NCBI RefSeq assembly: GCF_014199525.1
Contig: NZ_JACHNU010000002.1
Coordinates: forward strand, 106,147 to 170,146
Source of the DNA: Conexibacter arvalis
Lineage (GTDB): Bacteria; Actinomycetota; Thermoleophilia; Solirubrobacterales; Solirubrobacteraceae
DNA: 64,000 bases
Direction of reading: 5' to 3'
Part shown: piece by piece, positions 5,946-21,131 of the stretch
Position numbering within the stretch: the first letter of the stretch is position 1
Layout of the letters: every line of letters begins with the position of its first letter
Made by a program: the position numbers and the translations under genes
Notes under the pieces: model-generated
The model's input: only the letters and a program-made list of their open reading frames with translations
What the model was told of the DNA's origin: nothing
The model's database searches: none

Positions 5946-6739
5946 GCGCGCAGCGACAGCGCGAGCGCGAGAGCGGCGGCGAGCAGGGCCGCAGAGGCGT
6001 CTGGGTCTACGGCGTCGCGCCGGCCGGCGCCGCGCTGCGCGAGCTGGAGCGGCGCCGCGACAGACTCCCCGAGGTGTGGGTCGTCGACGCCGGCGACCTC
6101 GGCGCGATCGCCGGCCCGGCCCCCTCCGACGACGAGCGGGGGACGCGCGACCAGGCGCTCGCGCACGCGCACGTGCTCGAGGCCGCGATCCTCGACGCGC
6201 CGGTCGTCCCGTTCCGCTTCGGGATCGTCGTCGGCGACGCGCAGGACGTCGGCGAGGACCTCCTGCTCGCCCACCACGACGAGCTGGCGGCGCTGCTGAG
6301 ACGGGTCGAGAGCCGCCTCCAGATGACCCTCAAGGCCTACTACGACGAGGACGCGCTGCTGCGCGAGATCGTCGAGGCCGAGCCGGAGGTCGCGCGCCTG
6401 CGCGAGCAGCTGCGCGACGCGCCCGAGGAGGAGACGCGCGAGCAGCGCGTGCGGCTCGGCGAGCTGGTCGGCGCCGCCGTCGACCAGGCGCGCGAGCGCG
6501 ACGCCGCGGCGCTGCTCGACGCGCTGCGGCCGGTCGCGGTCGCCGCCGCCCCGGATCCGATCGAGCGCGAGTACATGGTCTGCAACGTGCCGCTGCTGGT
6601 CGAGCGCGATCGGCGCGAGGAGTTCGAGCAGGCCGTCGAGCAGCTCGCCGGCGACCACGCCGGGCGGATCCGCTTCCGCCTGCTCGGCCCGATGCCCGCG
6701 TACAGCTTCATCGACGTGGAGGAGCCGAGATGGGCCTGA
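5942..6739 (+). CDS. gvpF: gas vesicle protein GvpF (GvpF/GvpL family)
   Basis: This 265-residue protein belongs to the GvpL/GvpF family, minor components needed for vesicle assembly that contact GvpA in studied systems. Family features are VWVYGVAP at the N-terminus, [20 protein letters not shown] near residue 90, and the C-terminal [20 protein letters not shown] and [16 protein letters not shown] segment. The middle is rich in Glu and Arg and probably helical. It overlaps gvpA by 4 bp and gvpG by 10 bp. A second family member lies downstream (gvpL, 7693-8712). The F versus L naming rests on gene order as well as sequence. Confidence 0.92.
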
Positions 6740-6987
6740 TCAAGGAGCTGGTGCTGCTGCCGGTCGCGCCGCTGCGCTTCACCGTCTGGGTCGGCGACAA
6801 GCTCGCGGAAGAGGTCGACCGCCAACACAACAGCCCCGCAGCGACGGTGCGCGAGCTGGAGGAGATCGAGCAGGCCCGCGCACGCGGCGAGCTCGACGCC
6901 GAGGAGGCCGCGCAGCGCGAGAGCGAGGCGCTCGATCGCCAGCTCTCCGGACCGGGCGCCGACGAGGAGGGAGCCGACCGTGGCTGA
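6730..6987 (+). CDS. gvpG: gas vesicle protein GvpG
   Basis: This 85-residue protein starts [20 protein letters not shown], typical of GvpG, followed by a charged helical region (TVRELEEIEQARARGELDAE). GvpG is a small assembly protein of unresolved mechanism, usually encoded directly after gvpF. Its start lies within the end of gvpF, and its stop overlaps the GTG of gvpO, so translation is likely coupled throughout. Confidence 0.92.
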   Translation: MGLIKELVLLPVAPLRFTVWVGDKLAEEVDRQHNSPAATVRELEEIEQARARGELDAEEAAQRESEALDRQLSGPGADEEGADRG

Positions 6988-7258
6988 GCGCAAGACGCCG
7001 AGCGCGGAGCTGGCCAGACGAGCGCGCGATCAGCTCGCGGAGGTCACCGGGCTGCAGCCCGAGAGCGTCAGCTCGCTGGAGCGAGCCGAGGACGGCAGCT
7101 GGTTCGTCACCGTCGAGCTGCTCGAGCTGGAGCGCGTGCCGTCGACCGACGACGTGCTCGGCAGCTACGAGGCGCGCGTCGACGAGGACGGCGAGCTGCT
7201 CGGCTACAGACGGCTGCGCCGCTACGCCCGCAGCCACGCCTACGAGCAGAGCGGGTGA
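6980..7258 (+). CDS. gvpO: gas vesicle protein GvpO
   Basis: This 92-residue protein matches the GvpO family: ARRARDQLAEVTGLQPESVS, then DGSWFVTVELLELERVPSTD and the ending GYRRLRRYARSHAY. GvpO is required for vesicle formation in haloarchaea and is conserved in actinobacterial clusters, where it often comes before gvpA. Here it sits between gvpG and gvpJ. The start is GTG at 6980, inside gvpG. The stop is 4 bp before the gvpJ ATG. Confidence 0.9.
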   Translation: MAERKTPSAELARRARDQLAEVTGLQPESVSSLERAEDGSWFVTVELLELERVPSTDDVLGSYEARVDEDGELLGYRRLRRYARSHAYEQSG

Positions 7259-7262
7259 GCAG

Positions 7263-7700
7263 ATGAGCGGGATCGTCCCCTCCAGCTCCGGAAACGCCGC
7301 CGCTCCGGGCGGAGCGCTCGCCGGCGCGTCGGAGGGCGCGTCGAACCTCGCCGACGTGCTCGAGCGCGTCCTCGACAAGGGGATCGTGATCGTCGGCGAC
7401 ATCCGCGTGAACCTGCTCGACATCGAGCTGCTGACGATCAGACTGCGGCTGCTCGTCGCCGGCGTCGACACGGCGCGGCGGATCGGCATCGACTGGTGGG
7501 AGCACGACCCGTGGCTGAGCGGCGGCGACGAGAACAGGCGCGCCGAGCTGGAGCAGCGGCTCGACCGGATCGAGCGGCTCGTCGCCGGCGAGGAGGAGCC
7601 GCCGGCGCTGGAGCGGGAGAACGAGCAGCTGCGCGAGGAGGTCGACCGCCTCCGCCGCCAGCTGACGAGCGGGAGCGAGCAGCGGGGAGCCGATGGCTGA
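7263..7700 (+). CDS. gvpJ: gas vesicle protein GvpJ (GvpA-like)
   Basis: GvpJ is a minor GvpA-homologous protein thought to act in shell nucleation. The GvpA-like core is at residues about 26-76: SNLADVLERVLDKGIVIVGD, IRVNLLDIELLTIRLRLLVA, followed by GIDWWEHDPWL, which is characteristic of GvpJ rather than GvpA. A heptad-like charged tail (RLDRIERLVAGEEE, NEQLREEVDRLRRQL) suggests a coiled coil. The stop overlaps the start of gvpL. Confidence 0.92.
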   Translation: MSGIVPSSSGNAAAPGGALAGASEGASNLADVLERVLDKGIVIVGDIRVNLLDIELLTIRLRLLVAGVDTARRIGIDWWEHDPWLSGGDENRRAELEQRLDRIERLVAGEEEPPALERENEQLREEVDRLRRQLTSGSEQRGADG

Positions 7701-8712
7701 GCCGGCGGTCGGCTGGTACCTCTACTGCGTCCTCGACGCCGCGGCGCGGCCGCCGCTCGACGGGCTGGTCGGCGTCGACGGCGCGGCCCCGATCGAGCCG
7801 GTCGACGAGACCGGCCTGCGGGCGCTGGCCAGCCGCGTGCCGCTCAGCGAGTTCGGCGAGGAGCCGCTGCGGCGCAACCTCGAGGACCTCGCCTGGGTCG
7901 AGCGGACCGCGCGCGCTCACGACGCCGTCCTCGCCCGCACGCTCGCGTGCGACGCGGTCGTCCCGCTGCGGATGTTCACGATCTTCGCCGGCGAGCCCCA
8001 GGTCCGCGCGATGCTCGCCGACGAGCGCGCCGCGTTGACGGCCGCCCTGCGCCGCCTGCGCGGCCACGCCGAGTGGAGCGTCAAGGCGCGCGTCGACGAG
8101 CGGCGGCTGGAGGCGGTCCTGCGCGGCGAGGGCGGTGCGGGCGCGGCCGGCGCGGGCGCGGCGGGCGCAGGCGCGGCGGGCGCGGGCGCCGGTGGCGCGG
8201 CCGGTGCGGGCGCGGCGGGCGCAGGCGCGGCAGGCGCGGGCGCCGGTGGCGCGGCCGGTGCGGGCGCAGCGGGCGCAGGCGCGGCGGGCGCGGGCGCGGG
8301 CGCCGGTGGTGCGGACGCGGCGGGTGCCGGTGGCGCGGGCGCGGAGACGACCCCCGGCCGGGCCTTCTTCGCGCGCAAGCAGGCCGACCGCGGCCTGCGC
8401 GAGCGGGCGCTGGAGCGGATCGCCGACATCGCGGAGGAGATCCACGCGCGGCTGAGCGAGGCGGCGTCCGCCGAGACGCTGCTGCCGCCGCAGCGGCGCG
8501 AGCTGTCGCGCCTGCCCGGAACGATGGTGCTCAACGGCGCCTACCTCGTCGCCCGCGAGCGCGACGCCGCCTTCTCGGCGGCCGTCACGGAGCTGTCGGC
8601 GCGCCACCGCGCGGAGGGCTTCGCGATCGACGTCAGCGGCCCGTGGGCGCCGTACAACTTCGCGAAGCCCGGAGCGGAAGATGAGCAGCGAGCGCCGGCG
8701 CCCGGCCGCTGA
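7693..8712 (+). CDS. gvpL: gas vesicle protein GvpL (GvpF/GvpL family) with Ala/Gly insertion
   Basis: This is the second GvpF/GvpL-family protein (339 residues). The N-terminal half has WYLYCVLD, a DLAWVERTARAHDAVLARTL helix and VVPLRMFTIF. The C-terminal half has PPQRRELSRLPGTMVLNGAY, LVARERDAAFSAAVTEL and VSGPWAPYNFAK. Between them residues about 148-218 are an almost pure Ala/Gly tract built from GAGAAGAGA-type repeats (nucleotides 8133-8345). This replaces the short linker of ordinary family members and explains the extra length. The 3' end overlaps the next gene by 32 bp. Confidence 0.9.
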   Translation: MAEPAVGWYLYCVLDAAARPPLDGLVGVDGAAPIEPVDETGLRALASRVPLSEFGEEPLRRNLEDLAWVERTARAHDAVLARTLACDAVVPLRMFTIFAGEPQVRAMLADERAALTAALRRLRGHAEWSVKARVDERRLEAVLRGEGGAGAAGAGAAGAGAAGAGAGGAAGAGAAGAGAAGAGAGGAAGAGAAGAGAAGAGAGAGGADAAGAGGAGAETTPGRAFFARKQADRGLRERALERIADIAEEIHARLSEAASAETLLPPQRRELSRLPGTMVLNGAYLVARERDAAFSAAVTELSARHRAEGFAIDVSGPWAPYNFAKPGAEDEQRAPAPGR

Positions 8713-9571
8713 GGGCGAGGTCGAGCGGCCGACCGCCGAGCGCGACGTCGAGCGGCCGGCGGCTGAAGGCGAGGTCGAGCGGCCGACCGCCGAGCGCGAC
8801 GTCGAGCGGCCGGCGGCTGAAGGCGAGCGTCAGCGCCCGGCCGCTCAGCGTGAGGTCGCGCTGGTCGACGTGCTCGACCGCGCGCTCGGCACGGGCGTGG
8901 TCGTCAACGGCGACGCCGCGCTCTCGCTCGCCGACATCGACCTCGTCGAGATCGGCCTGCGGCTGGTCGTCGGCTCGGTCCCGGCGCTCCGCCCGTCCGC
9001 GGCCGAGCAGGAGGCCGAGACGGGCGGAGCGCCGGAGACGGGCGCGAAGGGCGGCGCACCGACGGCGGCCGCGCCAGGTGGACCGGCCGCGGCGCCGACG
9101 GCTGGCGCGTCGCCGCGGACGGCACCGGTGTCGCCGGCGCCCGCGGACGCGCTGCCCCGGCGAGCCACCCCGCCGCCGCACGCGCCGGCGGCCGCCGCCC
9201 CGGAGCCGCGCGCGCCGGAGCGCGCGCTGCCAGCCCGCGCCGCCCGGCCGGCGCGGGCGCACGAGCCGGAGGACGGCCCGCCGACGGAGCCCGTCGCGCG
9301 GGTCCGGCCGACGCGGCTCGACGCCGACGAGGACGACCTTGCGCGCGGGCTGGGCCAGCTCGTGCTGACGATCGTCGAGCTGCTGCGCCAGCTGATGGAG
9401 CGCCAGGCGATCCGCCGCGTCGAGGCCGGCGGACTGGACGAGGACGAGGTCGAGCGGCTCGGGCGCGCCCTGCTCGCGCTCGAGCGCCAGATGGACGAGC
9501 TGAAGGAGACCTTCGGGCTGACCGACGAGGACCTCAACCTCGACCTCGGCCCGCTCGGCAGACTGCTGTGA
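8681..9571 (+). CDS. gvpK: GvpS-GvpK fusion protein
   Basis: One uninterrupted frame of 296 residues joins two gas vesicle proteins. Residues 1-55 are charged repeats (two 54-bp units, GEVERPTAERDVERPAAE). Residues about 56-105 are a GvpA-family domain of GvpS type (VALVDVLDRALGTGVVVNGD, LSLADIDLVEIGLRLVVGS). Residues about 106-210 are an Ala/Pro linker. Residues about 213-296 are GvpK (DEDDLARGLGQLVLTIVELL, MERQAIRRVEAGGL, LKETFGLTDEDLNLDLGPLG). In Streptomyces gvp clusters gvpS and gvpK are neighbouring separate genes. No internal stop or good internal start separates them here. The ATG at 8681 has GGAGCGGAAG upstream. This is the last gene of the operon. Confidence 0.9.
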   Translation: MSSERRRPAAEGEVERPTAERDVERPAAEGEVERPTAERDVERPAAEGERQRPAAQREVALVDVLDRALGTGVVVNGDAALSLADIDLVEIGLRLVVGSVPALRPSAAEQEAETGGAPETGAKGGAPTAAAPGGPAAAPTAGASPRTAPVSPAPADALPRRATPPPHAPAAAAPEPRAPERALPARAARPARAHEPEDGPPTEPVARVRPTRLDADEDDLARGLGQLVLTIVELLRQLMERQAIRRVEAGGLDEDEVERLGRALLALERQMDELKETFGLTDEDLNLDLGPLGRLL

Positions 9572-10038: not shown

Positions 10039-10992
10039 TCAGGCGACGCGCGTGATCGAGATGCTGGTCGCGAGCTCGAGCTCCATCGTGAGCTGGTTGG
10101 CGATCCGCGCCGAGAGCGTATCGCCGGCGTCCAGCTCGATCAGCCGCTCGATCCGCACCTGCGCCTCGCGCAGCGGCGCCCGCAGCGTCAGGACGAGCGC
10201 GACGTTGACGTCGAGCATCGGGAGCAGGCGCTGCTCGACGACCGTGCCGTTGCGGAGCAGCTGCAACGCGGCTCCCGCGCTCGCCGCGCTGGAGGTCGTG
10301 ACCGACGAGGTCGGCCCGCCGTGCGCCGCCACGTCGACGCGGTAGACCCCCGTCACGGGCGCGGTGTAGAGACCCGACGCGAGGTCGAAGGACGGGCTCG
10401 ACGGCTGGCCGGAGGCGCTCCACGCGGTGACCGCATGCGCGCCAGGGGCGTAGCGGGTCGGAGCCGTCGTCGCGCCGTCGTTCGGACCGACGACTCCGTC
10501 TCTGCCCGGGGCGCCGTCTCTGCCAGGAGCGCCGTCGTCGCCCTTCGGCCCGGCCGGTCCGATCGCGCCGGTCGCTCCGGCCGGGCCGGCCGGCCCTGCG
10601 GGTCCCACGTCGCCCTTCGGCCCTGCGGGCCCGGCGGCCCCTGCGGCCCCGGCCGGCCCGGCGGGACCGGTGGCGCCGACGGCGCCGGCGGGCCCCACGG
10701 GCCCGGCCGGCCCTGCCGCGCCGCGCTTGCCGGGACGGCCGGCCGGCCCGCGATCGCCCGCGGGCCCCTCGGCGTTCCACGAGATCTTGCGCTGGCCGTG
10801 CGGGCATCTGGCCTTCGCCGTGGTGAGGTTGAGCGTGCCGAAGTCGTTCGTGACGCAGGCGTGGATCCGCGCCTGCTTTCTCGAACCGGTCGCGACGCGG
10901 TCGGCGACGGCGTAGGCGGAGCCGCCGAGCAGCAGGAACAGCGCCATGAACGCGACCACATGGCGGCGGAGGACGGACAACGCCCGTGACAT
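10039..10992 (-). CDS. secreted or anchored collagen-like protein with C1q/TNF-like C-terminal domain
   Basis: Residues 1-30 are a signal peptide or anchor ([19 protein letters not shown]). Residues about 74-168 are uninterrupted Gly-X-Y triplets rich in GPAGPAG and GPKGD, a bacterial collagen-like triple helix. Residues about 175-317 look like a C1q/TNF-like beta-sandwich ([51 protein letters not shown]), which would promote trimers. A segment with two Cys ([28 protein letters not shown]) precedes the collagen part. GAAGGGA lies just before the ATG. A role in surface structure or adhesion is inferred from the architecture. Confidence 0.85.
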
Positions 10993-11133
10993 GCGAATCC
11001 CTTCGTCTGCAGCCCGATCCCTTCGGGCTGGTGTGCGGTGAGGGGCCCGCCGAGCGCGGGCCGGTCCGGCACGTTATCGCGCGGCGACGCGGCCGGGCGA
11101 CCAGCGCCACCGTTCGTCAACGTGCCGCGAATG

Positions 11134-11161
11134 TGGCAAGATCACTTGCCATGAAGGCAAG
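11134..11161 (+). promoter_or_regulatory. overlapping inverted repeats at the XRE-cupin start, candidate autoregulatory operator
   Basis: TGGCAAG-ATCA-CTTGCCA (11134-11151) is immediately followed by CTTGCC-ATGAA-GGCAAG (11145-11161), giving three half-sites, the middle one shared. The start codon lies within the array. Occupancy by the regulator would block initiation, so autorepression is a reasonable inference. Confidence 0.5.
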
Positions 11162-11729
11162 GACAGCAGAGGAGCCGGTCGACGTCCGCGTCCGCCGGCG
11201 GCTGCGCGAGCTGCGGACCCGCCAGGGGCTGACGCTCCAGCAGGTCGCCGCGCGCGCCAGCATCGACGAGTCGACGCTCAGCCGCCTTGAGGCCGGCAGA
11301 CGGCGGCTCGCGCTCGACCACATCCCCGCGCTGGCCGGCGCGCTCGGCGTCTCGGCCGACGAGCTGCTCGGCTCCGCTCCGCCGCCCGACCCGCGCGTGA
11401 GAGCGCGCCCGAGAAGACGCTGGGGCCTGACGATGTGGCCGCTGACCCGCCGCGGCGCAGCCGGCGGGCTGCAGGCGTACAAGATCGTGATCGACGCCGA
11501 CCGCGACACGCCGCCCAAGGAGCTGCCCGTCCACGAGGGCCACGACTGGCTGTACGTCCTCTCGGGCCGGATGCGGCTGCTGCTCGGCGAGCGCGACATG
11601 GTGATCGAGCCCGGCGAGGCGGTCGAGTTCACGACCTGGACGCCCCACTGGTTCGGCGCCGTCGACGGCCCGGTCGAGCTGATCGGGATCTTCGGCCCGC
11701 AAGGCGAGCGGGTCCACCTGCACAGCTGA
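11151..11729 (+). CDS. XRE-family transcriptional regulator with C-terminal cupin domain
   Basis: Residues about 10-70 are an XRE helix-turn-helix (RRLRELRTRQGLTLQQVAAR, ASIDESTLSRLEAGRR). Residues about 105-185 are a cupin sensor (LPVHEGHDWLYVLSGRMRLL, MVIEPGEAVEFTTWTPHWFG). This arrangement is common in regulators that sense small metabolites; the ligand here is unknown. The ATG at 11151 is inside a palindromic array. No clear Shine-Dalgarno sequence is visible, so the mRNA may be leaderless. Its stop overlaps a candidate operator for the LacI gene that follows 15 bp downstream. Confidence 0.88.
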   Translation: MKARTAEEPVDVRVRRRLRELRTRQGLTLQQVAARASIDESTLSRLEAGRRRLALDHIPALAGALGVSADELLGSAPPPDPRVRARPRRRWGLTMWPLTRRGAAGGLQAYKIVIDADRDTPPKELPVHEGHDWLYVLSGRMRLLLGERDMVIEPGEAVEFTTWTPHWFGAVDGPVELIGIFGPQGERVHLHS

Positions 11730-11743
11730 TAAAACCCTTTGGC
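11728..11743 (+). promoter_or_regulatory. degenerate LacI-type operator at the start of the LacI gene
   Basis: GATAAAACCCTTTGGC shares the right half CCCTTTGGC exactly with the near-perfect palindrome at 20406-20421 and has a partly matching left half. It lies directly before the LacI start, which suggests autoregulation by the same protein that controls the permease operon. Confidence 0.4.
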
Positions 11744-11744
11744 A

Positions 11745-12773
11745 ATGGCGATGAGAATGCAACCTCGAAGACGGGTCAGCATCAGAGACATCGCCGACGC
11801 GGCGGGCGTCTCGCTGACGACCGTCTCGCACGCGCTCAACGGCAAGGGGCGGGTCCAGCCGGAGACGCGCGCGCGGATCTTCGCGCTCGCCGCCGAGCTG
11901 GGCTACAGCGCCAACCCGCATGCGCAGCGGCTCGCGACCGGCCGCCACATGATGCTCGCGGTCCAGATCTCCGGCTTCGGCGGCAAGGCGCTCGCGACCG
12001 ACTCGGCCTACTTCGTCGACGTGCTCAACAGCGTCTCGGCGGCAGCGCTCGACCACGGCTACACCGCGGTGCTCGCCGCGCCCGACATGCGCCCGCGCGA
12101 CATCGACGCCTTCGCCGTCGACGGCGCGATCGTCGTCGACCCGACCGGCGAGGAGCCGCTGCTGACGACGCTCGCGCAGCGCGGCGCCCCCGTCGTCACG
12201 ACCGGCCGCGTGCTCGGCGCGGGCCAGACCAGCGGCTGGGTCGACAACGACCTGCGCAAGGCGGCGACGCGAGTGCTCGACCACTTCGGCGACGCCGGCT
12301 ACGAGCGGCCGGCGATCCTGACCGGCCCGCTGACGCGCTCCTACGCCGCCGACACCGTCGAGACCTACGAGCGGTGGGCGCGGGAGCGCGGGATCGAGCC
12401 GATCTCGGTCGCGGTCAGATCGGGCATGTCGGCCGCCGCGGCGATGAGAGCGGCGGAGGCGCTGCTGTCGCGCAGGGACCGCCCCGACGCCGTCTACGCG
12501 ATGCTCGACGTGCTCGCGCTCGCGACCGCGCACGTCGCGCGCAGACGCGGCCTGTCGGTCCCCGGCGACCTCGGGATCGCGGCCGCCTTCGACAGCGAGG
12601 TGCTGCGCTGGGCCGACCCGCCGCTGACCGCCTTCGACCTCCACCCCGCGCGGATCGGGCGCGAGGCGGTCGCGCTGCTGACCGCCGTCCTCGCCGACCC
12701 GACCAGAGCCGGCCGCTCGGTCACGGTGCCGGCGAAGCTCATCTCGCGGGCGTCGACCGCCCGCTCCGGGTGA
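11745..12773 (+). CDS. LacI-family transcriptional regulator
   Basis: The N-terminus is a classic LacI HTH and hinge: VSIRDIADAAGVSLTTVSHA, LNGKGRVQPETRARIF and GYSANPHAQRLATG. The rest is a periplasmic-binding-protein-like sensor ending with GLSVPGDLGIAAAFDSEVLR and PLTAFDLHPARIGREAV, the usual dimer-contact region. ATG 11745 was chosen; TTG 11739 and ATG 11751 are in-frame alternatives. The gene is convergent with the seven-gene minus-strand operon and overlaps its last gene by 35 bp. The matching palindromes near its own start and upstream of the permease suggest it represses that operon. The inducer is unknown. Confidence 0.9.
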   Translation: MAMRMQPRRRVSIRDIADAAGVSLTTVSHALNGKGRVQPETRARIFALAAELGYSANPHAQRLATGRHMMLAVQISGFGGKALATDSAYFVDVLNSVSAAALDHGYTAVLAAPDMRPRDIDAFAVDGAIVVDPTGEEPLLTTLAQRGAPVVTTGRVLGAGQTSGWVDNDLRKAATRVLDHFGDAGYERPAILTGPLTRSYAADTVETYERWARERGIEPISVAVRSGMSAAAAMRAAEALLSRRDRPDAVYAMLDVLALATAHVARRRGLSVPGDLGIAAAFDSEVLRWADPPLTAFDLHPARIGREAVALLTAVLADPTRAGRSVTVPAKLISRASTARSG

Positions 12774-13728
12774 GCCGCGCCCACAGCCGCTCGAGCCGCT
12801 CCTCCCCCTCGGCGCCGACGTCGCGGACCGTGACGCAGCGGCGCACGACCTCCTCGCCGGGGAACAGCACCGGGTCGTCGCGCAGCTCCGGCGCCAGCAG
12901 CGCGCGGGCGGCGCCGTTGGGCGTCGCGTAGCCGTTGCGCTCGACCGTGATCCGCGCGACCGCCGGGTCGAGCAGCACGTCGATCGCGGCGTGCGCGAGC
13001 AGCGGCCGGTCGCAGCGGGCGTCGATCGCGGCGGTCGTCACCCACAGGACCGCGCCCTCGGCCGGGACGGCGTAGGCGAGCCGCTCGTCGGCCCGCATCG
13101 CGCGCGCCGCCGGGCCGCTCCAGGCGTGGTGGGCGACGACCTCGCGGTCGACCACCGGACCGACGAAGTCGTCGCTGTCGAAGCCGGCGATCGCGTCGGC
13201 GCGCCGCTCCAGCAGCGCGGCCGCCGCCGCGAGCGACTCGTCGTCGGTCGCGTTGACGTCGCGGCCGCAGGCGATCAGCGCGGCGCCGATCACCTCGCGC
13301 AGCTCGTCGAGCAGGCCGACGGCGACGCCGGGCGGCGGGTCGAGCAGCGCCGCCCAGCCGCGTGCGCCGGCATCGGGCAGCCGCTCGCGGTCGTAGAGGA
13401 TCCCGGTCGTGCCGAAGGCGAGCGGGACCGCCCAGCGCTCGTCGGGATCCCAGACCGGCCGCCGCGCCCACGGCGCCAGGCCGACGCGGCCCGGCAGCAG
13501 CGCGGGGTCGAGCGGGTGGAGCGCGCCGCGCGCCGCCAGCCGCTCGACCATGTAGTCCGACGGCGTGATCACGTCGTAGCGCTCGCCGGCGAGCAGGCGC
13601 TCCTCGAGCTGCTCGTTGGTCGAGATCGCGACCGACTCGACGGCGACGCCGAGCCGCCGCTCGACCAGGTCGAGCGCCTCGTCGGCCGGCATCCCCGGCC
13701 AGACGAGCATCCGCAGCGGCGCGGTCAC
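12739..13728 (-). CDS. PotD-like substrate-binding protein without a signal peptide
   Basis: This 329-residue protein resembles bacterial extracellular solute-binding proteins of the spermidine/putrescine (PotD/PotF) type: VTAPLRMLVWPGMPADEALD, ERYDVITPSDYMVERLAARG, WAVPLAFGTTGILYDRERLP and YAVPAEGAVLWVTTAAIDAR. There is no signal peptide or lipobox, and no ABC permease or ATPase gene nearby, so it is probably cytoplasmic. The GTG start at 13728 overlaps the upstream stop (GTGA). It is the last gene of the operon. It may sense or sequester the substrate taken up by the operon's permease; that is inference. Confidence 0.7.
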   Translation of the reverse strand: MTAPLRMLVWPGMPADEALDLVERRLGVAVESVAISTNEQLEERLLAGERYDVITPSDYMVERLAARGALHPLDPALLPGRVGLAPWARRPVWDPDERWAVPLAFGTTGILYDRERLPDAGARGWAALLDPPPGVAVGLLDELREVIGAALIACGRDVNATDDESLAAAAALLERRADAIAGFDSDDFVGPVVDREVVAHHAWSGPAARAMRADERLAYAVPAEGAVLWVTTAAIDARCDRPLLAHAAIDVLLDPAVARITVERNGYATPNGAARALLAPELRDDPVLFPGEEVVRRCVTVRDVGAEGEERLERLWARLTRSGRSTPAR

Positions 13729-14531
13729 CGGTCGAGCTCCTCGACGTCCTCGTACCACTGCGCGCGCGTGCCGACCTTCGCGCGCAGCTTCCAGCGGCGC
13801 GTCTTCGGCTCGGCCTCGATCGCCGCCGCCAGCCGCTCCAGCCGCTCGCCGGTTGCCGCCGTCTCTCCGTTGAGGCCGGCGTCCGGGACGAGCGCGCGGA
13901 CCTTCTCGACGTTGCCCGAGGCGGTGTGGTGGAAGCCCCAGTCGCGCGCGAGCAGCCGCGCGACGTGGCCGGCGTCGAGGCCGTCGCCGGCGTCGGTCGG
14001 CGACAGCTCGTGGCCGAGGAGCAGGTAGAGGATGTCGACGAGGTCCTTGTCGGTCGTCTCGACGATCTGCAGCTTCTGCAGCAGCAGGTCGGTCGCCGAC
14101 GCCGCGACGCCGTCGGCGTCGAGCGCGTCGCGCAGCTCCAGTCTGTGGCAGGCCGGCGGCAGGCCGAGGAAGACGTCGACCTCCAGCGCCGGCTCCTCGC
14201 CGCCCGCCTCGAACAGGAAGTAGCGGTGGCGTCTGTCGCCGTGCCAGGCGATCAGCCGCTCGTCGGCGACGTAGCCGCGCGCGGCGAACAGCTCGGCGAC
14301 CTCCGCCTTCGTACCCGGCGGGGCGATCAGGTCGAGGTCCTTCGGCGCCGGGCGCATGCGGGCGTAGGCGTCGCGCCGCGCGGGCGCCAGCCGCTCCCAC
14401 ACGCCGATGCCGCCGACGGCGCGCAGCGGCACGCCGGCGGCGGCGCCGGCCGCGACCAGCGCGCGCGCCTCCGCCGCCATCCGCTCGAACGCCTCGCCGG
14501 GAGGGCCCGCGGGCCGTTCGATCTCGGTCAT
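13725..14531 (-). CDS. nucleotidyltransferase-like protein
   Basis: This 268-residue protein has the hallmarks of a minimal nucleotidyltransferase fold: LRAVGGIGVW (GG motif), PAPKDLDLIAPPG (a DxD-like acidic pair) and EPALEVDVFLGLP (third acidic residue), plus helical C-terminal segments (SATDLLLQKLQIVETTDKDL VDILYLLLGH, written here in two pieces). Its target is unknown. It lies 1 bp after the HDAC-like gene and overlaps the binding-protein gene. AbiEii-type antitoxin/toxin NTases share this fold, but no partner is present. Confidence 0.6.
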   Translation of the reverse strand: MTEIERPAGPPGEAFERMAAEARALVAAGAAAGVPLRAVGGIGVWERLAPARRDAYARMRPAPKDLDLIAPPGTKAEVAELFAARGYVADERLIAWHGDRRHRYFLFEAGGEEPALEVDVFLGLPPACHRLELRDALDADGVAASATDLLLQKLQIVETTDKDLVDILYLLLGHELSPTDAGDGLDAGHVARLLARDWGFHHTASGNVEKVRALVPDAGLNGETAATGERLERLAAAIEAEPKTRRWKLRAKVGTRAQWYEDVEELDR

Positions 14532-14532
14532 C

Positions 14533-15651
14533 TCATCTCACCTCCGGCCAGTGACGGCCGATCGCTCTGCGTACCTCGGCCAGCCGCTCAGGCCAGCCCT
14601 CCGCCGGCGGCGCGTCGGCCGCGAACGGATCCTCAAGGTCGGTCGCGAAGCTGCCGAGCCCGCCAAGGATCGCGTGGTCGACCTGCGGCAGCGTCGAGAC
14701 GTTGTAGCCGCCCTCGTGGACGACGACGAGGCCGATCTTCCGGCCGCTCGCGAAGGCCGCCATCCGCTCCGCCATCGCGCGGAAGCCGGCCGCCGAGACC
14801 AGCTGGTTGGAGAGCGGGTCGGCGGCGTGGCAGTCCTGCCCGGCCGAGACGATCAGCAGCTGCGGGTCGTAGGCGTCCAGCAGCGGCAGCACGACCGCGT
14901 CGAGCGCCTCGAGGTACTCGCGGTCGCCGCTGCCGGGCGGCATCGGGACGTTGGCGTTGAAGCCCGCGCCGGCGCCCTCGCCGGTCTCCTCCAGCCAGCC
15001 GGTGCCGGGGTAGAGCGGCCACTGGTGCAGCGAGCAGAAGAGGACGCTTGGGTCGTCGTAGTGGATCTCCTGCGTGCCGTTGCCGTGGTGGACGTCCCAG
15101 TCGACGATCGCGACCCGCTCGATCGGATAGGTCGCCTGCGCGTAGCGGGCGGCGACGGAGACGTGGTTGAAGAGGCAGAAGCCCATCGCGCGGTCGGCCG
15201 GCGCGTGGTGGCCCGGCGGCCGCGTGAGGCAGAAGAGGCTGTCGGGCCGCCAGTAGGCCTCCATCGCGACCGCGTCGACGGCCGTCAGCGCGGCGCCGGT
15301 CGCGAGCGTCGCGAGGTCGAAGCTGCCGGGGCCGGCCTTCGTGTCGGTGTCGAGCCAGACCGGGCCGTCGCGGTCGGCGCGGCGGACGCTCTCGACGTAG
15401 CGCGTGTCGTGCGAGCGGACGAGCTCCTCGACGCGGGCGTGGCGCGGGTGCATGACGAACAGCCGCTCCCAGTCGGCGCTCGCTCTCAGCCGCTGCACGA
15501 CGCCCGGCAGCCGCCGTGCGTTCTCGGGGTGCTCGCCGGTGTCGTGGCGCTCCTGCCCGGGCAGCAGCACGACTCCGGTCAGCGCCTGCTCGCGGCGGTA
15601 GTAGCCGTGCGGGACCGACCCGATCCCCTCGACCTGCTCGATCGCGCTCAT
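14533..15651 (-). CDS. histone deacetylase-like amidohydrolase (acetylpolyamine deacetylase type)
   Basis: This zinc hydrolase of 372 residues belongs to the HDAC/AcuC/AphA superfamily, which removes acetyl groups from acetylated amines. Visible features are TRPPGHHA (His-His dyad), VDWDVHHGNGTQ (zinc Asp and His), SAGQDCHAADPLS (second zinc Asp; family usually SAGFDAH) and VHEGGYN (transition-state Tyr). The N-terminus has HPENARRLP, common in this family. It overlaps the nitrilase-like gene (ATGA). The operon's APC permease and PotD-like protein suggest an acetylated polyamine substrate, but other N-acyl amines are possible. Confidence 0.85.
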   Translation of the reverse strand: MSAIEQVEGIGSVPHGYYRREQALTGVVLLPGQERHDTGEHPENARRLPGVVQRLRASADWERLFVMHPRHARVEELVRSHDTRYVESVRRADRDGPVWLDTDTKAGPGSFDLATLATGAALTAVDAVAMEAYWRPDSLFCLTRPPGHHAPADRAMGFCLFNHVSVAARYAQATYPIERVAIVDWDVHHGNGTQEIHYDDPSVLFCSLHQWPLYPGTGWLEETGEGAGAGFNANVPMPPGSGDREYLEALDAVVLPLLDAYDPQLLIVSAGQDCHAADPLSNQLVSAAGFRAMAERMAAFASGRKIGLVVVHEGGYNVSTLPQVDHAILGGLGSFATDLEDPFAADAPPAEGWPERLAEVRRAIGRHWPEVR

Positions 15652-16439
15652 GCCTGCTGCTCCTCGTGTCGCTCGTCTTCGCTCGGTGCGGCGGCCGCGG
15701 GCGCGGCCCGGGCGACGGCCGGCACCGGGATCGCCACGCGACCGTCGGCGCCGACCGCCAGCTCCTCGCCGCCGGCCGCGACCGCGCACGCGCCGCCCGC
15801 GAAGGCGATCCCGTGCTCCTCGCCGGCGCGGTTGGCCAGCGCGACCGCGACGCCGTGCGCCGCCGCCATCCCGCGCGCGAGGGCGCGGAGGCGATCCCAG
15901 CCCTCCTCGTCCTCCGCGACGCCGGCGACGACCAGCCGGGCGCCGCGTCGCGCGAGCGCCGCCCACGCCTGCGGGTCGGCCGCGTCGAGGCCGACGAGCA
16001 GGCCGGTCGGGCCCCACGGCGCGTCCGCGACCGCGAGGTCGCCGTGGCCCGGCGAGCAGAACAGCTGCTCGTAGCGGCCGTGGGCGGCGGCGAGCCTGCG
16101 CTGCCGGTAGGCGACCTCCTCGCCGCCGTCGCGGCCGAGCCGCGCGGTCAGGTAGAAGACGCCCTCCCCCTCCGACTCGTACGCGGACGCGGACAGCCAC
16201 GCGGGACCGGCGGCGGCGAGCGCGTCGCGCCACGCCGGCGCCGGCGCGCGCTGCGCCAGCTCGAGGCCGGCGCGGTCCCGCGTCGCCGCAACGTACGGCG
16301 CGAAGCTCCATTGCGGCAGGCAGATCAGCTCCGCGCCGGCGGCGGACGCGGCGGCGACGGAGGCGTGCGCCGCGGCGCACGCCTCCTCCCCGTCCGTCAC
16401 GCCCCCAAACGGCGGGAGCGCGACGTCGACCGTGGTCAT
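15648..16439 (-). CDS. nitrilase-superfamily protein lacking the Glu-Lys-Cys triad (probable pseudoenzyme)
   Basis: The 263-residue sequence follows the carbon-nitrogen hydrolase fold of N-carbamoylputrescine amidases. The catalytic Glu position reads AELICLPQWSFAPY (Gln), the Lys position YRQRRLAAAHGRYEQLFCSPG-like (Gln/Arg), and the nucleophile position GLLVGLDAADPQAW (Gly instead of Cys). Losing all three residues would abolish normal chemistry, so a binding, regulatory or scaffold role is likely. It lies 5 bp after the M24 gene and overlaps the HDAC-like gene. An intact paralogue begins at 63638. Confidence 0.75.
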   Translation of the reverse strand: MTTVDVALPPFGGVTDGEEACAAAHASVAAASAAGAELICLPQWSFAPYVAATRDRAGLELAQRAPAPAWRDALAAAGPAWLSASAYESEGEGVFYLTARLGRDGGEEVAYRQRRLAAAHGRYEQLFCSPGHGDLAVADAPWGPTGLLVGLDAADPQAWAALARRGARLVVAGVAEDEEGWDRLRALARGMAAAHGVAVALANRAGEEHGIAFAGGACAVAAGGEELAVGADGRVAIPVPAVARAAPAAAAPSEDERHEEQQA

Positions 16440-16444
16440 CGCGA

Positions 16445-17686
16445 TCACTCCCACCAGACGGTCGGCAGGTCGCGCGTCAGCACCTCGACGCCCTCCTTGG
16501 TGACGATCACGTTGTGCTCGAAGGCGCCGGTGCCGGCGCCGGGGCGGCCGACCTCGGCCTCGATCGCCCACACCTGGCCGGGGGCCAGCTCGGCCGTCTC
16601 GCCGGGCATCAGCCACGGGTGCTCCCACGCGAGGCCCATGCTGTGGCCGAACGACGGGAAGCTCTGGCCGAGGTAGGCGACGCCGTCGGAGGACTCGCCG
16701 CCCGGCACGTCGAAGCCGTGCTCGCCGAGCCACGCCGCGCCGCGGTTGAAGAGCTCCTCGCAGCGGACGCCCGGTCTCATCCCCTCGACGATGTGCTCGA
16801 CGACCGCGGCGCTCGCCTCCAGCACCTCGCGCTGCGCGTCGGTGACCTTGCGGCCGGCCACCGTCGTGCGGACCATGTCGTAGAAGTAGCCGTTGACGGT
16901 GCCGTACATGTCGGGGTGGATCATGTCCCCGGCCTCCAGCGGCCGCTTGTGGTCCCACGACGGCATCCGGTCCCACTGGAAGTGGTCGACGTTCGGCCCC
17001 GAGGTGACCGGGATGTCGAGCGGGAAGGCGCCCTGGCGGACGCCGGTCTGGAAGGCCGCGATCACGCAGTCGGCCTCGGTCGCGCCCGGCACCGCCGCCT
17101 CGCAGAAGGCGGCGACCATCTCGGAGCCGACGCGGACCGCCTCGCGCACGAGCACCAGCTCGGCCGGCGACTTGACCAGCCGCATCGCCTCGATCAGGTC
17201 GTCGGCCCACTCGAACTCGATCTCCGGCAGCGCCTGGCGGATGCGGTCGATCGCGACGTGCGGCAGCGACTCGCGGCCGATCAGGCCGACCTTGCCGGCG
17301 CCCAGCCCGCGATCGTTCAGCGTCTTCGCCGCGCCGGCCCACAGGTCGAGCTCGACGCGGACGTCGTCGATCACGACGAGATCGTCGCGCCAGTCGGGGA
17401 TCTCGACGACGAGCGTGCCGTCCTCCTCGACCGGCATCACGACGACGCCGTGGCCGCGGCCCGACCACGCCGGCGGGCGGTCGGCGATCTGCGGGAAGGG
17501 CGAGTAGTGGTTGGTGAGGTAGACGACGTCGGCGCCCCAGTCGGCGCCGTTGGCGCCGCGGCTGACGACCAGCAGGCCGTCGAGGCCGCGCTCCTGGGCG
17601 CGGCGCCGCAGCTCCGCGCGCCGCTGCGCGAACTCCGCGCGCGGGATGCCGTTGACGACGTCAGCCGTCTCGCTCGTTGCACTCAT
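16445..17686 (-). CDS. M24-family metallopeptidase (Xaa-Pro peptidase/creatinase-like)
   Basis: This 413-residue protein has an N-terminal creatinase-N domain (LDGLLVVSRGANGADWGADV, VYLTNHYSPFPQ) and a C-terminal pita-bread catalytic domain. Metal ligands are plausible: Asp in HPDMYGTVNGYFYDMVRTT (two positions), His in FPSFGHSMGLAWEHPW, and Glu in VWAIEAEVG and AFEHNVIVTKEGVEVL. Members cleave Xaa-Pro bonds or hydrolyse C-N bonds such as in creatine or ectoine derivatives. Given its operon, an amide or guanidino compound is as likely as a peptide. Confidence 0.85.
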   Translation of the reverse strand: MSATSETADVVNGIPRAEFAQRRAELRRRAQERGLDGLLVVSRGANGADWGADVVYLTNHYSPFPQIADRPPAWSGRGHGVVVMPVEEDGTLVVEIPDWRDDLVVIDDVRVELDLWAGAAKTLNDRGLGAGKVGLIGRESLPHVAIDRIRQALPEIEFEWADDLIEAMRLVKSPAELVLVREAVRVGSEMVAAFCEAAVPGATEADCVIAAFQTGVRQGAFPLDIPVTSGPNVDHFQWDRMPSWDHKRPLEAGDMIHPDMYGTVNGYFYDMVRTTVAGRKVTDAQREVLEASAAVVEHIVEGMRPGVRCEELFNRGAAWLGEHGFDVPGGESSDGVAYLGQSFPSFGHSMGLAWEHPWLMPGETAELAPGQVWAIEAEVGRPGAGTGAFEHNVIVTKEGVEVLTRDLPTVWWE

Positions 17687-17711
17687 GTGGGGACTCCTCT
17701 CGTGGGTTCTG

Positions 17712-18692
17712 TCAGCCGGTGACGAACTGGTGGCCGACGACGCGCTCGGGCTCGAGCGTCACCAGCACCGCGCGCAGCACGCCCTCGGCGTATTCGCTTC
17801 CGGGGTTGATCGCCTTCGTGCGCCCGATCTCGACGGCGCCCGGCGACTCGTGGATGTGTCCGTGAAGGCTCAGCAGCGGCTGGCGGTCGGCCAGGAACGA
17901 CGCGACCGCCCTGCTGCCGACCGATGCCGTCGAGCCGGCGATCGCACGCGGCGGCGAGACCGACGTGTCGAGCTCCGGCGCGATGTCGAGCGACGAGCCG
18001 TGCGGCGGCACGTGGATGTTGGCGATCACCGACGTGAAGTCGCCGGCCTGCCCGGCGAGCGCGTCGAGCTCGGCGGCGAGCTTCTCCTCCGGCACGTCGC
18101 GCGGGCACTGCCACGGCGTCTCGTTCGCCAGCCCGCAGGAGATCAGCGTCCAGTCGTCGTTCAACGGCAGCACCCTGCCGTCGGCGCCGTGGGTCCACTC
18201 GCGCTCGGCGAAGGTCAGCTCGTCGAGGTTCCACGGGTCGTCGTTGCCGGCGATCAGGTACGCGGGGACCCGCAGCTCGGCGCAGCGCGCCTCGAGCCGC
18301 TCGATCCAGCGCTCCCAGCGCTCGTACATCAGGCGGTCGAAGACCTCCTCGGCGTGGGCCCCGTCGTCGTGCAGCGCCTGCAGCTCGTCGGCCGAGCCGC
18401 GGTAGGGGTAGAAGCCGAGCTGGGAGCCGAGCCGCTCGTACTCGGGCAGCTCGTCGAGCGCGACCTCGTGCTCCTCGCCCATCCACCGCACGCGGGCGCC
18501 GCCGCCCTCGACGTGGATCGGCATCAGGCCCTTGCCGGCGACGTCGCCGCCGACGACGATCGCGTCGGGCCGCCACGCCTGCAATGCGCCGAGCAGCTTG
18601 CCGAAGGTGTGCTCGCTGCCGTGCAGATCGGTCGCGAACAGCACCTTGATCCGCCGTCTCTTCTCGCCTGCGCGCTTCTTGAAGAGGCCCAT
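17712..18692 (-). CDS. calcineurin-like metallophosphoesterase
   Basis: The 326-residue protein carries the metallophosphoesterase signature in order: VLFATDLHGSEHTFGKLL (DxH), AIVVGGDVAGKG (GDxxx), YLIAGNDDPW (GNxD in place of GNHD), VIANIHVPPHG and LSLHGHIHESPG (GHxH), then AINPGSEYAEG. The fold binds two metal ions and hydrolyses phosphomonoesters or diesters; the substrate is unknown. The N-terminus is Lys/Arg-rich without a signal peptide. It begins 2 bp after the permease stop, so it belongs to the same operon. Confidence 0.8.
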   Translation of the reverse strand: MGLFKKRAGEKRRRIKVLFATDLHGSEHTFGKLLGALQAWRPDAIVVGGDVAGKGLMPIHVEGGGARVRWMGEEHEVALDELPEYERLGSQLGFYPYRGSADELQALHDDGAHAEEVFDRLMYERWERWIERLEARCAELRVPAYLIAGNDDPWNLDELTFAEREWTHGADGRVLPLNDDWTLISCGLANETPWQCPRDVPEEKLAAELDALAGQAGDFTSVIANIHVPPHGSSLDIAPELDTSVSPPRAIAGSTASVGSRAVASFLADRQPLLSLHGHIHESPGAVEIGRTKAINPGSEYAEGVLRAVLVTLEPERVVGHQFVTG

Positions 18693-18694
18693 CG

Positions 18695-20368
18695 TCACTC
18701 CGGCGGCAGCTGGCGGAAGGCCAGGTCGAGGTCGACGCCGTTGCGCTTCTGCCAGGCGCGGTAGGCGAAGAACCAGATCGCCGAGACGACGAGGCTGAGC
18801 AGGAGCAGCAGGCGCGCCGCGGTCGTCGTGAAGCCGAGCTCGGGATAGATCAGGTTCATCACCGTGACGGCGCCGGCGGCGAGGAAGGTGACGGCGCCGG
18901 CGACGGCGATCAGCGGCAGCCCAAGGATTCTGTGGCGCGCGACCGGCGAGACCTCGTGGACGTGCTTGGCGCGGTAGGCGAACAGCATCCCCGCCAGGCC
19001 GCTCATCGCGATCACGCCGACGCTGGTGAAGGCGCCGCCGTAGACCATCGTGTTCTTGACCTCGTCGTCGAAGCGGTAGAGGACGTTGAGCGCGACGGCG
19101 ACCGCGAAGTAGAAGAGCGCGGCGTTGACGGGCGCGTGGAAGCGCTCGCTGATGCGGCTGAACCACTCGGGGATCGTGCGGTCCATGCCCATCGCCGAGA
19201 GGACGCGCGTCATGTTGAGGAAGACGCACGTGGTGAAGTAGAAGCCGACCGCTATGAATCCGAGCGCCAGCAGGATCGAGACGATCGGGCTGCTCGTCAT
19301 CATCATCGCGAAGCTCGGGATCGTCGCCCCGGCTGGTGAGGTGACGTCACCGTTGGTGAACGCGAAGGCGTAGGCGTTCATGAATTCATTGCCGACCATC
19401 CGCTGGAAGAGCCAGGTCGGGATCACCCACGCGACGAGGCCGACGTAGAGGCCGCCGATCGCGAAGGCGCGGAAGAGGCGGCCGAAGTTGTTGGCCTGCT
19501 TGGTCTCGCCGAGCAGCCCCTGCGCGCCGAAGACGACGTACCAGGCCAGGCCGACGACCGACAGGAACATGACGGTGTATCTGAAGCTGAAGCTCGGGTT
19601 CTCGAAGCCCCCTCTCTCCGCGGCCGCCTGGACGGTCGCGTGGAAGTTCGGGTCGCCGGTCGCCGCCTGGTGGAACTCGTTGAACTGCGTGATGAACGAG
19701 CTGTTGGAGCGCAGCAGCAGGAGGATCAGGACGATGTTGGAGACGACGATCGCCGGGATGATCAGGAAGCACTGGATCTTGCGGTAGGCGCCGATCCCGC
19801 GCAGCGTCACCGCGAACGCCATCGAGGTGAGCGCGAGCGTCGTCACGAGCAGGCCGTTGGCGCCGCCGAACCAGTTGGCGGCGTCGATCAGCGCGCTCGA
19901 CTCCCACTGCAGGCCGAGGTTGAACAGCAGCGGCTGCAGCCCGAGCGTCGCCACCACGAGGCCGCCGGTCGTCGTGAAGGTGACCCACATGAACACCTCC
20001 CACGCGAACGTGAAGGTGAAGCCGACGGCCGGATGAATCGCGCGCGATTGATACAGGTAGTCGCCGCCCATCCGCGGCATCGCCGAGCCCAGGCCCGCAT
20101 AGAGCGCGAAGACGGGGATCATCAACACCATCGCGATCAACGCGGTGAGCGGAACGTTGAGGCCCGCGAGGAAGACCTGCGGCGACGGGAAGACGTACAG
20201 CAGGCCGAACAGCGCGCCGGCCGCCAGGATGCCGTACCACGCGGTGTCGGCCAGCGACAGCTCGCGCACCAGACCCGACGATCTGCGTGAGAAGACGCCG
20301 AGCGATGGCGCAGGCGTCTTCGGCCCCCGGATCGAACCCGATCCAGGCGCTCTCGAGGCGGTATTCAT
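18695..20368 (-). CDS. APC-superfamily amino acid/polyamine permease
   Basis: This 557-residue membrane protein has about 12 hydrophobic segments and APC features: the first helix pair (ADTAWYGILAAGALFGLLYV), RMGGDYLYQSRAIHPAVGF and later VTSPAGATIPSF, TRVLSAMGMDRTIPEWF and a cytoplasmic tail. It should import an amino acid, amine or polyamine by proton symport. GGAGGGAGAG precedes the ATG at 20368. It is the first gene of the seven-gene operon. A near-perfect LacI-type palindrome lies 38 bp upstream. Confidence 0.9.
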   Translation of the reverse strand: MNTASRAPGSGSIRGPKTPAPSLGVFSRRSSGLVRELSLADTAWYGILAAGALFGLLYVFPSPQVFLAGLNVPLTALIAMVLMIPVFALYAGLGSAMPRMGGDYLYQSRAIHPAVGFTFTFAWEVFMWVTFTTTGGLVVATLGLQPLLFNLGLQWESSALIDAANWFGGANGLLVTTLALTSMAFAVTLRGIGAYRKIQCFLIIPAIVVSNIVLILLLLRSNSSFITQFNEFHQAATGDPNFHATVQAAAERGGFENPSFSFRYTVMFLSVVGLAWYVVFGAQGLLGETKQANNFGRLFRAFAIGGLYVGLVAWVIPTWLFQRMVGNEFMNAYAFAFTNGDVTSPAGATIPSFAMMMTSSPIVSILLALGFIAVGFYFTTCVFLNMTRVLSAMGMDRTIPEWFSRISERFHAPVNAALFYFAVAVALNVLYRFDDEVKNTMVYGGAFTSVGVIAMSGLAGMLFAYRAKHVHEVSPVARHRILGLPLIAVAGAVTFLAAGAVTVMNLIYPELGFTTTAARLLLLLSLVVSAIWFFAYRAWQKRNGVDLDLAFRQLPPE

Positions 20369-20405
20369 CACTCTCCCTCCGCGCGGAAGCCAGCGCGTAT
20401 CGGAT

Positions 20406-20421
20406 GCCAAAGCCCTTTGGC
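20406..20421 (-). promoter_or_regulatory. LacI-type operator upstream of the permease operon
   Basis: GCCAAAG-CC-CTTTGGC is an inverted repeat with 7-bp perfect arms, 38 bp upstream of the permease start. Its half CCCTTTGGC recurs at the LacI gene start (11735-11743). It is a likely binding site for that LacI protein. Confidence 0.55.
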
Positions 20422-20599
20422 TTACCCTAGCGGCATCCCCGGCCCCTGCCAACCCCACCTGCGCGAATTCGCTCCCGAGCCCCGGCCGGCTCGGTCAAAC
20501 GTCTACCGCCCGCACCGCCGCCAACGGCGACGGGGCGGTGCACGAACTGCGCAGGCCCGCGCATTTCAGGGCGGCCGCGCTTGAACGGCTGGACGCCGC

Positions 20600-20844
20600 A
20601 TGCCGTACTGCCTGACCATGCGGTTCACGCGCCACGCCATCGAGCGGCTCGCCACGCGCGGCATCGCGCGCGAGGACTCGCCGCTGTCATCGCTTCCCCG
20701 GTCCGCATGGCCCGGATTCGTCCGAACGCGGCCAGCTACTTCGGGCGCGCGCTCGACCGGCGGGCTATCGTCGTCTCAGTGGCGCACGATCCGCACGACC
20801 TGATCATCACCGTGATGCTCGACCAATCCGAGGAACGCGCATGA
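20600..20844 (+). pseudogene. frameshifted DUF4258-like gene (putative toxin of a DUF4258/DUF2283 pair)
   Basis: The first frame gives RFTRHAIERLATRGIARED, the DUF4258 N-terminal signature, then loses sense. The next frame supplies the remainder (LAAVIASPVRMARIRPNAAS, RAIVVSVAHDPHDLIITVML). Joining them near 20678, where one base appears to be missing after GAG-GAC, restores a complete DUF4258 protein. ATG 20600 or 20618 could be the start. The end overlaps the DUF2283 gene by 4 bp (ATGA). It may be a disabled toxin, a sequencing error or, less likely, a programmed frameshift. Confidence 0.65.
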
Positions 20845-21131
20845 AGGCCGTCTACGACAGCGAGGCCAACGCGATCGAGATCACCCTCGCCGACGTGCGC
20901 CGGGTCGACCGCGACGTGCCCGCGCACCCGTGCGGCACCGTCGCCCTCGCCGACGGCCGGCCGGTCAGCGTCGAGCTGCTCAACGTGCGCGCCGGCGTGG
21001 ACGACGCCGTCGATGCGATCGTCACCCGCTTCGCCGAGCTTGACGGCGGCGCGCTCCGCGCCGCCGCCGATGCCGCGCTCGCGGTCCCCGGCCGGCAGGT
21101 CGAGATCACCGTCACCTCGCGCGCCGCGTAG
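20841..21131 (+). CDS. DUF2283-like protein (putative antitoxin partner)
   Basis: This 96-residue protein opens MKAVYDSEANAIEITLADV, close to the DUF2283 pattern (MxxxYDxEADALYIxL), and continues with GTVALADGRPVSVELLNVRA. DUF2283 genes often lie next to DUF4258 genes, and such pairs have been suggested to be toxin-antitoxin modules; the function is not proven. Its start overlaps the frameshifted DUF4258 gene. The 3' end overlaps the convergent MobA-like gene by 20 bp. Confidence 0.7.
   Translation: MKAVYDSEANAIEITLADVRRVDRDVPAHPCGTVALADGRPVSVELLNVRAGVDDAVDAIVTRFAELDGGALRAAADAALAVPGRQVEITVTSRAA

Follow-up and report, generated by a model that had tools for sequence, protein, structure and literature searches.

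A permease, metallophosphoesterase and nucleotidyltransferase trio joined to a catabolic cassette in a LacI-linked operon of Conexibacter arvalis

Results

Organization of the operon

In a stretch of 64,000 nucleotides from Conexibacter arvalis (assembly GCF_014199525.1, 5.2 Mb; contig NZ_JACHNU010000002.1, positions 106,147 to 170,146), hereafter called the window, we examined an operon of seven tightly packed genes accompanied by a convergent gene for a LacI-family regulator. The seven genes occupy positions 20368 to 12739 of the minus strand. The first encodes an APC-type permease of 557 aa (18695-20368; Pfam AA_permease_2, 5.7e-18) and is followed by genes for a calcineurin-like metallophosphoesterase (MPE) of 326 aa (17712-18692; Metallophos, 5e-10), an M24 hydrolase of creatinase/prolidase type (16445-17686; Peptidase_M24, 5e-28), a CN-hydrolase (nitrilase-fold) pseudoenzyme (15648-16439; CN_hydrolase PF00795, 1.5e-14), an HDAC/HDAH-type zinc amidohydrolase (14533-15651; Hist_deacetyl, 8e-87, and a PDB match), a nucleotidyltransferase (NTase) of 268 aa with ANT/LnuA-like fold (13725-14531; identified by alignments and an AF2 model) and a PotD-like binding protein devoid of a signal peptide (12739-13728; SBP_bac_6, 7e-14, with PDB and NCBIfam matches). 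The regulator gene (plus strand; PF00356 LacI and PF13377 Peripla_BP_3) starts at 11739 (TTG) or 11745 (ATG) and ends at 12773, so that the 3' ends of lacI and the PotD-like gene overlap over 35 bp. Given the intergenic spacings, in operon order 2, 25, 5, -4, 1 and -4 bp, the seven genes almost certainly form a single transcription unit of about 7.6 kb.

An original prediction, made from reading the DNA alone, had described seven genes separated by at most 25 bp or overlapping, with LacI adjoining. The gene boundaries agree with it throughout, and all the genes lie where it had placed them. It had also counted on a conserved neighbourhood, and our neighbourhood comparison found the set recurring in the same order in other genomes, so that the arrangement is more than chance. 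Judged by these neighbourhoods, the operon is two joined modules, a trio of permease, MPE and NTase and a catabolic cassette, and not one polyamine pathway, since the full set is rarer than the trio and the cassette stands apart from the trio in some genomes.

The trio in bacteria and archaea

Genome comparison indicates that the permease, MPE and NTase form an unnamed trio, the core of the operon, which is found in many bacteria and archaea, ranging from Thermoleophilia, Rubrobacter and Chloroflexota to Alphaproteobacteria, Halobellus and Asgard archaea. We followed it in a class sample of 199 genomes and a phylum sample of 296 genomes, with four positives common to both, using hidden Markov models built from the class sequences; many of the loci come from metagenome-assembled genomes. 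A protein search with the NTase detected homologs in 37 of the 199 class genomes, and neighbourhood reading showed that most close NTases adjoin an MPE and an APC permease. Presence counts, which take no account of adjacency, point the same way: the MPE was found in 34 class genomes, always together with the NTase and never alone (Fisher 3e-35); two weak partial MPE matches (G009 and G063, E ~1e-21) were left out of this count. In the phylum sample, NTase and MPE were each present in 38 genomes and coincided in 37, that is, in 37 of 39 carriers (Fisher 7.6e-45). A trio-type permease accompanies the NTase in 35 of the 37 class genomes, only two class genomes having the permease without the NTase, and occurs in 33 of 35 further phylum genomes having MPE or NTase, including all 21 of the near-complete ones. 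MPE genes lie at most 6 kb from a trio-type permease in 63 of 69 cases (class) and 51 of 56 cases (phylum).

When 84,980 species genomes were scanned with the NTase alignment, 419 relatives were obtained, and neighbourhoods were taken from the best 80 of them. These best 80 belong to Actinomycetota, Chloroflexota, Armatimonadota, Proteobacteria, Asgard archaea, Thermoproteota, Bathyarchaeota and others, the closest named relatives of the window by NTase being Solirubrobacterales and other Thermoleophilia metagenome-assembled genomes. Within 6 kb of the NTase, 70 of these 80 loci contain an MPE, 69 a permease and 64 both, many of the exceptions being short contigs. Gene order and strand are highly variable among them, and linkage of the trio is therefore more than the inheritance of one operon.

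The C. arvalis genome itself contains a second trio; it lies on contig C3 and is accompanied by LacI and ureohydrolase genes of its own (L040). Another genome (G195) contains six MPEs, seven permeases and a single NTase; where one NTase goes with several permease-MPE pairs in this way, it would seem to act in trans on a target that they share. Four loci labelled Chloroflexota or Anaerolineales (L092, L094, L108, L121) carry two NTases near one MPE, together with recurrent small neighbours. A looser NTase subfamily (f6, for example in G032, G050 and G068), with many copies per genome and 42 genes in the class sample, has no link to the trio.

Annotated records give the trio, or the permease-MPE pair, generic names only. 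In Halobellus limi, the genes are listed as metallophosphoesterase, 'hypothetical protein' (scoring 249 bits as trio NTase) and APC permease; on the T. roseum megaplasmid, an APC permease and a metallophosphoesterase adjoin a binding protein and a nitrilase-related protein. The latter, 603 aa long, directly follows the pair (L167, 7996-9804). Searches of the open-licence literature combining these gene names found no paper on the trio, and in the family libraries and open-licence papers searched there was no system in which a tailed APC permease is coupled to an NTase and an MPE of its own. For this reason we regard the trio as new as a system, though its parts belong to known superfamilies.

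A conserved tail on the permease

The window permease has about 12 hydrophobic (transmembrane) windows and ends in the tail NGVDLDLAFRQLPPE. Among 110 non-redundant, complete, trio-linked permeases, 107 share a consensus at the very C-terminus, G-[IV]-D-x4-[FY]-x-E-[IL]-P-x-[ED]-COOH. Glu occupies position -5 in 98 of them, Ile, Leu or Val position -4 in 109, Pro position -3 in 107, and Glu or Asp position -1 in 103. Carriers include Actinomycetota, Chloroflexota, Alphaproteobacteria and archaea, Halobellus among them. The tail is missing from the other readable APC permeases of the source genome, which score 28-47 bits against 595 and 633 for its two trio permeases. As a small control, two class genomes without NTase and MPE (L169 and L170) were examined, and their nearest permeases lack the tail too. 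In trio genomes, permeases without an adjacent MPE mostly still carry the tail, which suggests that MPE and NTase can work in trans.

The trio is met in varied catabolic surroundings, including agmatinase, class III aminotransferase, inositol catabolism, GcvT-like and ALDH genes. As the tail is conserved across such contexts, NTase and MPE seem to follow the permease and not one substrate or pathway.

NTase and MPE as enzymes

Both partners of the permease should be active, to judge from their predicted active sites. The window NTase has no significant Pfam match of its own (best 0.054), and its profile found nothing significant among PDB sequences (best E 1.2, ANT(2'')). It was recognized by its structure model together with conserved D65, D67 and D119. 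The hG[GS] motif, DxD and third acid are all present, G40, D65 and D67 being invariant and D119 occurring in at least 90% of relatives. VIA-align ranks ANT(2'')-Ia first among the matches to the AF2 model (pLDDT 91.4), with Z 12.5 and rmsd 3.9 over 164 residues; MenT1 follows with Z 11.1 and rmsd 3.4 over 170 residues, and LnuA with Z 10.5 and rmsd 3.0 over 137 residues. The window NTase shares the fold and the catalytic acid pattern with ANT(2'')-Ia and LnuA, but only 13-16% identity, and is tied to a permease and an MPE instead of antibiotic resistance. With the MenT and AbiEii toxins it shares the fold (Z 8-11); the partner of these toxins is an AbiEi-type antitoxin, whereas none lies beside the window NTase, whose neighbours are the HDAC and PotD-like genes and whose partners elsewhere are MPE and permease. 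The uncharacterised NTase family PF14907 matches 21 of 37 trio NTases, weakly, and the trio family is therefore at most an unnamed branch of it. A role as an anti-phage system was rejected, PADLOC giving nothing convincing and no match to the NTase.

In the MPE, the metal motifs DxH, GD, GND, H and GHxH are intact (D22, H24, D50, N150, H227, H277, H279), and all of 34 bacterial and archaeal sequences share these residues. Its AF2 model (pLDDT 93.7) shares fold and metal site with aq_1956 (2yvt; Z 26.1, 236 residues, rmsd 3.3) and TT1561 (1uf3; Z 25.1, 215 residues, rmsd 2.7). Identity to these two proteins is 16-17%, and no permease link was found for them. The fold search yields no function, as these closest entries carry none in their titles.

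The catabolic cassette

The second module consists of M24, CN-hydrolase, HDAC and PotD-like genes in conserved order. It is rarer than the trio and was found in six further genomes. The fullest row, L048, reads LacI, ureohydrolase, nitrilase, permease, MPE, NTase, M24, CN-hydrolase, HDAC, PotD-like. NTase, permease, MPE, M24, CN-hydrolase and HDAC are found with LacI in L035 and in L074, the latter adding the PotD-like gene. L076 comprises LacI, permease, MPE, NTase, M24, HDAC and PotD-like, its CN-hydrolase frame being in L072. In L075 and L077 the cassette lies apart from the trio.

Two of the four cassette proteins keep their active sites. The M24 hydrolase retains all five metal ligands (D259, D270, H348, E376 and E390 in the PDB alignment). 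Its top NCBIfam match is DoeA, and pairing of an M24 hydrolase with a deacylase recalls the doeA/doeB genes of ectoine degradation; the window differs in having an HDAC-type deacylase plus a pseudo-nitrilase and a binding protein. The ectoine pathway was rejected, as the match scores 53.9 bits against a DoeA equivalog cut-off of 613. The HDAC-type protein retains its zinc ligands (D186, H188, D273), the dyad H148 and H149, and Y316. A Glu at the gatekeeper position makes HDAC10 a polyamine deacetylase (PMC5454378); the window protein has Leu280 at this place (DP[L/E]). Its nearest single-domain relatives are general HDAH amidohydrolases (4e-66), whereas the bacterial acetylpolyamine amidohydrolase (APAH) entry 3men matches more weakly (6e-36). 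We consequently dismissed an HDAC10-like polyamine deacetylase, and the specific acetylpolyamine deacetylation of the original prediction is not supported.

The remaining two proteins are misleading by name. The nitrilase fold of the CN-hydrolase-like protein is supported by PF00795 and by PDB amidases (1e-8), but its catalytic triad is lost: Glu is replaced by Q43, Lys by Q113 and Cys by G150. The triad is gone in all seven orthologs, where Gln or Leu stands in place of Glu, Gln in place of Lys and Gly in place of Cys, so that this protein is, by its residues, a conserved pseudoenzyme. Hydrolysis by the nitrilase-like protein, proposed earlier as an amide-cleaving step, was thus abandoned. 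The PotD-like protein lacks a signal peptide in six of six orthologs, whose N-termini start at the mature domain, and is probably cytoplasmic. E. coli PotD binds spermidine by the acids E36, D168, E171 and D257. The window protein resembles it (E 5e-36) and keeps E142 and E145, but has T231 at the place of D257 and a non-acidic residue at the place of E36. It differs from PotABCD in the replacement of these two of four ligand acids, in the missing signal peptide and in having no ATPase or permease partners of ABC type. All three points led us to reject the proposed PotD-like polyamine uptake.

LacI regulation and likely substrate

The palindrome TGCCAAAGCCCTTTGGCT (20405-20422) lies about 40 bp upstream of the permease gene, and its footprint recurs in at least eight related loci; a second operator-like site, TGATAAAACCCTTTGGCA (11727-11744), is located at the lacI start. 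The operator core pattern, with at most two mismatches, matches four times in the window against 0.11 expected: the TGCCAAAGCCCTTTGGCT palindrome accounts for two matches, being read on either strand, the lacI start for a third and a site elsewhere, at 26362, for the fourth. Sister operons have TGC[AC]AAA[AG]CG[CT]TTT[TG]xCA-like sites before their first genes (two in L048, further ones in L045, L050, L046, L044, L076, L074 and L035), and LacI orthologs stand beside the same module in L035, L074, L076 and L048. These sites bring predicted support for the LacI link seen in the original reading.

Among the genes of sister operons with cognate operators are those for an agmatinase-like ureohydrolase and for a nitrilase that is intact. 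In L048 the ureohydrolase scores above the cut-off of the agmatinase model (192.7 against 174.3) and resembles agmatinase, guanidinobutyrase and guanidinopropionase. Related LacI proteins thus probably govern both the ureohydrolase-nitrilase and the M24-HDAC versions of the operon, and the same operator type on both suggests related nitrogen-rich substrates. Because cognate sites precede the ureohydrolase and intact-nitrilase operons, a guanidino or acyl-amine compound is the likely substrate. A nitrogen-rich substrate, of the class of the polyamine- or amide-like compound first suggested, accordingly stays plausible, while the polyamine-specific enzymes that went with it are not borne out.

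Directly before lacI, a gene on the plus strand (10986-11729) encodes an XRE-HTH and cupin regulator with weak similarity to PuuR; it could serve the region as a further regulator.

Other genes of the window

Two small genes resembling a DUF4258/DUF2283 pair are found directly upstream of the permease (20609-21131, plus strand). By reading only, positions 3924-9571 hold a gas-vesicle-like group: an SRPBCC-like protein (3924-5186), a GvpA-like protein (about 5346-5942), two GvpF/L-like proteins (5942-6739 and 7693-8712) and a GvpK-like protein (8681-9571). On the minus strand, the window further encodes a protein with a long acidic repeat of EEEPEAEA type (2851-3732) and a collagen-like protein with Gly-x-y repeats (10039-10992).

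Discussion

The explanation we favour, to which we give a probability of about 0.45, is that a widespread transport module has been joined to a catabolic cassette under LacI, its NTase and MPE serving as writer and eraser that control uptake. We infer that transport is the step at which the NTase would attach a nucleotide, most likely to the permease or to a protein docked on its tail, and that the MPE would remove this nucleotide, switching uptake on and off. The permease would import a guanidino- or acyl-amine-type compound, to be hydrolysed by M24 and HDAC and sensed by LacI, while the inactive CN-hydrolase and the binding protein could act as cytoplasmic binding or sensing subunits. Unusual pairing of nucleotidyltransferase and phosphoesterase had been pointed out by the original prediction and proved a good lead; the pair belongs, however, to the permease and recurs in many catabolic contexts, not in one pathway.

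A wider and more tentative proposal is that permeases with the E-[IL]-P-x-[ED] tail represent a new transporter-control system common to bacteria and archaea, switched by reversible nucleotidylation through a dedicated NTase writer and MPE eraser. Reversible nucleotidylation is familiar from nitrogen control (GlnD/PII with AmtB, and GlnE). The likeness would be one of shared logic, a nucleotide being added and removed to control nitrogen uptake or use. The eraser of the trio is an MPE, there is no PII protein, and the permease is of APC and not Amt type.

Several observations speak against writing and erasing on the permease. At its aromatic position the tail often has Phe, and it therefore looks like a docking site, not a modified residue. 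The closest NTase folds have small molecules (ANT(2'') and LnuA) or tRNA (MenT) as their targets, none being known to act on a transporter. Protein distances correlate over 86 loci (Mantel r 0.85 for MPE-permease, 0.74 for NTase-MPE and 0.66 for NTase-permease), as joint inheritance would lead us to expect, and these values may partly mirror the species tree. Moreover, 26 of 91 class permeases have no MPE or NTase within 6 kb, and some permease-MPE pairs, such as that of the T. roseum megaplasmid, have no NTase nearby.

The second of these points would suit metabolic trapping, the main rival. Here, the NTase would nucleotidylate the incoming compound and so keep it inside, the MPE would release it for catabolism, and the tail would dock the NTase, coupling import and capture. 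Opposite chemistries of NTase and MPE and their strict linkage to an importer agree with trapping, as does the small-molecule adenylyltransferase nature of the closest folds. Trapping would, however, demand of one NTase that it handle widely differing substrates (agmatine-like compounds, inositols and others), and it agrees poorly with genomes that have a single NTase for six or seven permeases, so that we consider it unlikely, if worth keeping in mind. The opposed chemistries would equally allow the NTase to make, and the MPE to destroy, a small nucleotide gating the permease through its tail. Among the nearest MPE folds is indeed Rv0805, a cyclic-nucleotide phosphodiesterase. ANT/LnuA/MenT-like NTases, though, transfer NMP to an acceptor, and a Pfam search saw no nucleotide-binding domain in the permease; a second messenger is in our opinion improbable.

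An ordinary acetylpolyamine or agmatine catabolic operon, with NTase and MPE as enzymes of that pathway, is what the HDAC, M24 and PotD-like genes and the agmatinase-like ureohydrolase and nitrilase of sister operons would lead one to expect. It is nevertheless quite unlikely, for the two enzymes also stand with the permease where such genes are missing, in other genomes and operons, and the very proteins that evoke such a pathway lack the nitrilase residues, the polyamine gatekeeper or PotD acids. Least probable of all is a toxin-antitoxin-like pair, in which the NTase would be a MenT-like tRNA-modifying toxin, the MPE its antidote and the permease a neighbour by chance. MenT1 and MenT3 are among the best fold matches of the NTase; yet the absence of an AbiEi-type antitoxin beside it and of any PADLOC match, and above all the conservation of permease family and tail together with the pair, make this highly doubtful.

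Control of amino-acid-type permeases is thought to lie mainly in gene expression, substrate and a few bound regulators. Linkage of the trio hints at an unfamiliar way to control uptake. If this is true, a permease family with its own nucleotide writer and phosphodiester eraser would represent either a new kind of transport control or coupled import and capture. Inactive nitrilase and signal-less PotD-like proteins show that gene names in such operons can mislead. The trio gives a handle on many NTase and phosphoesterase genes now called 'hypothetical' or named generically, and its short tail motif marks the permeases concerned, offering testable systems in cultured thermophiles and halophiles.

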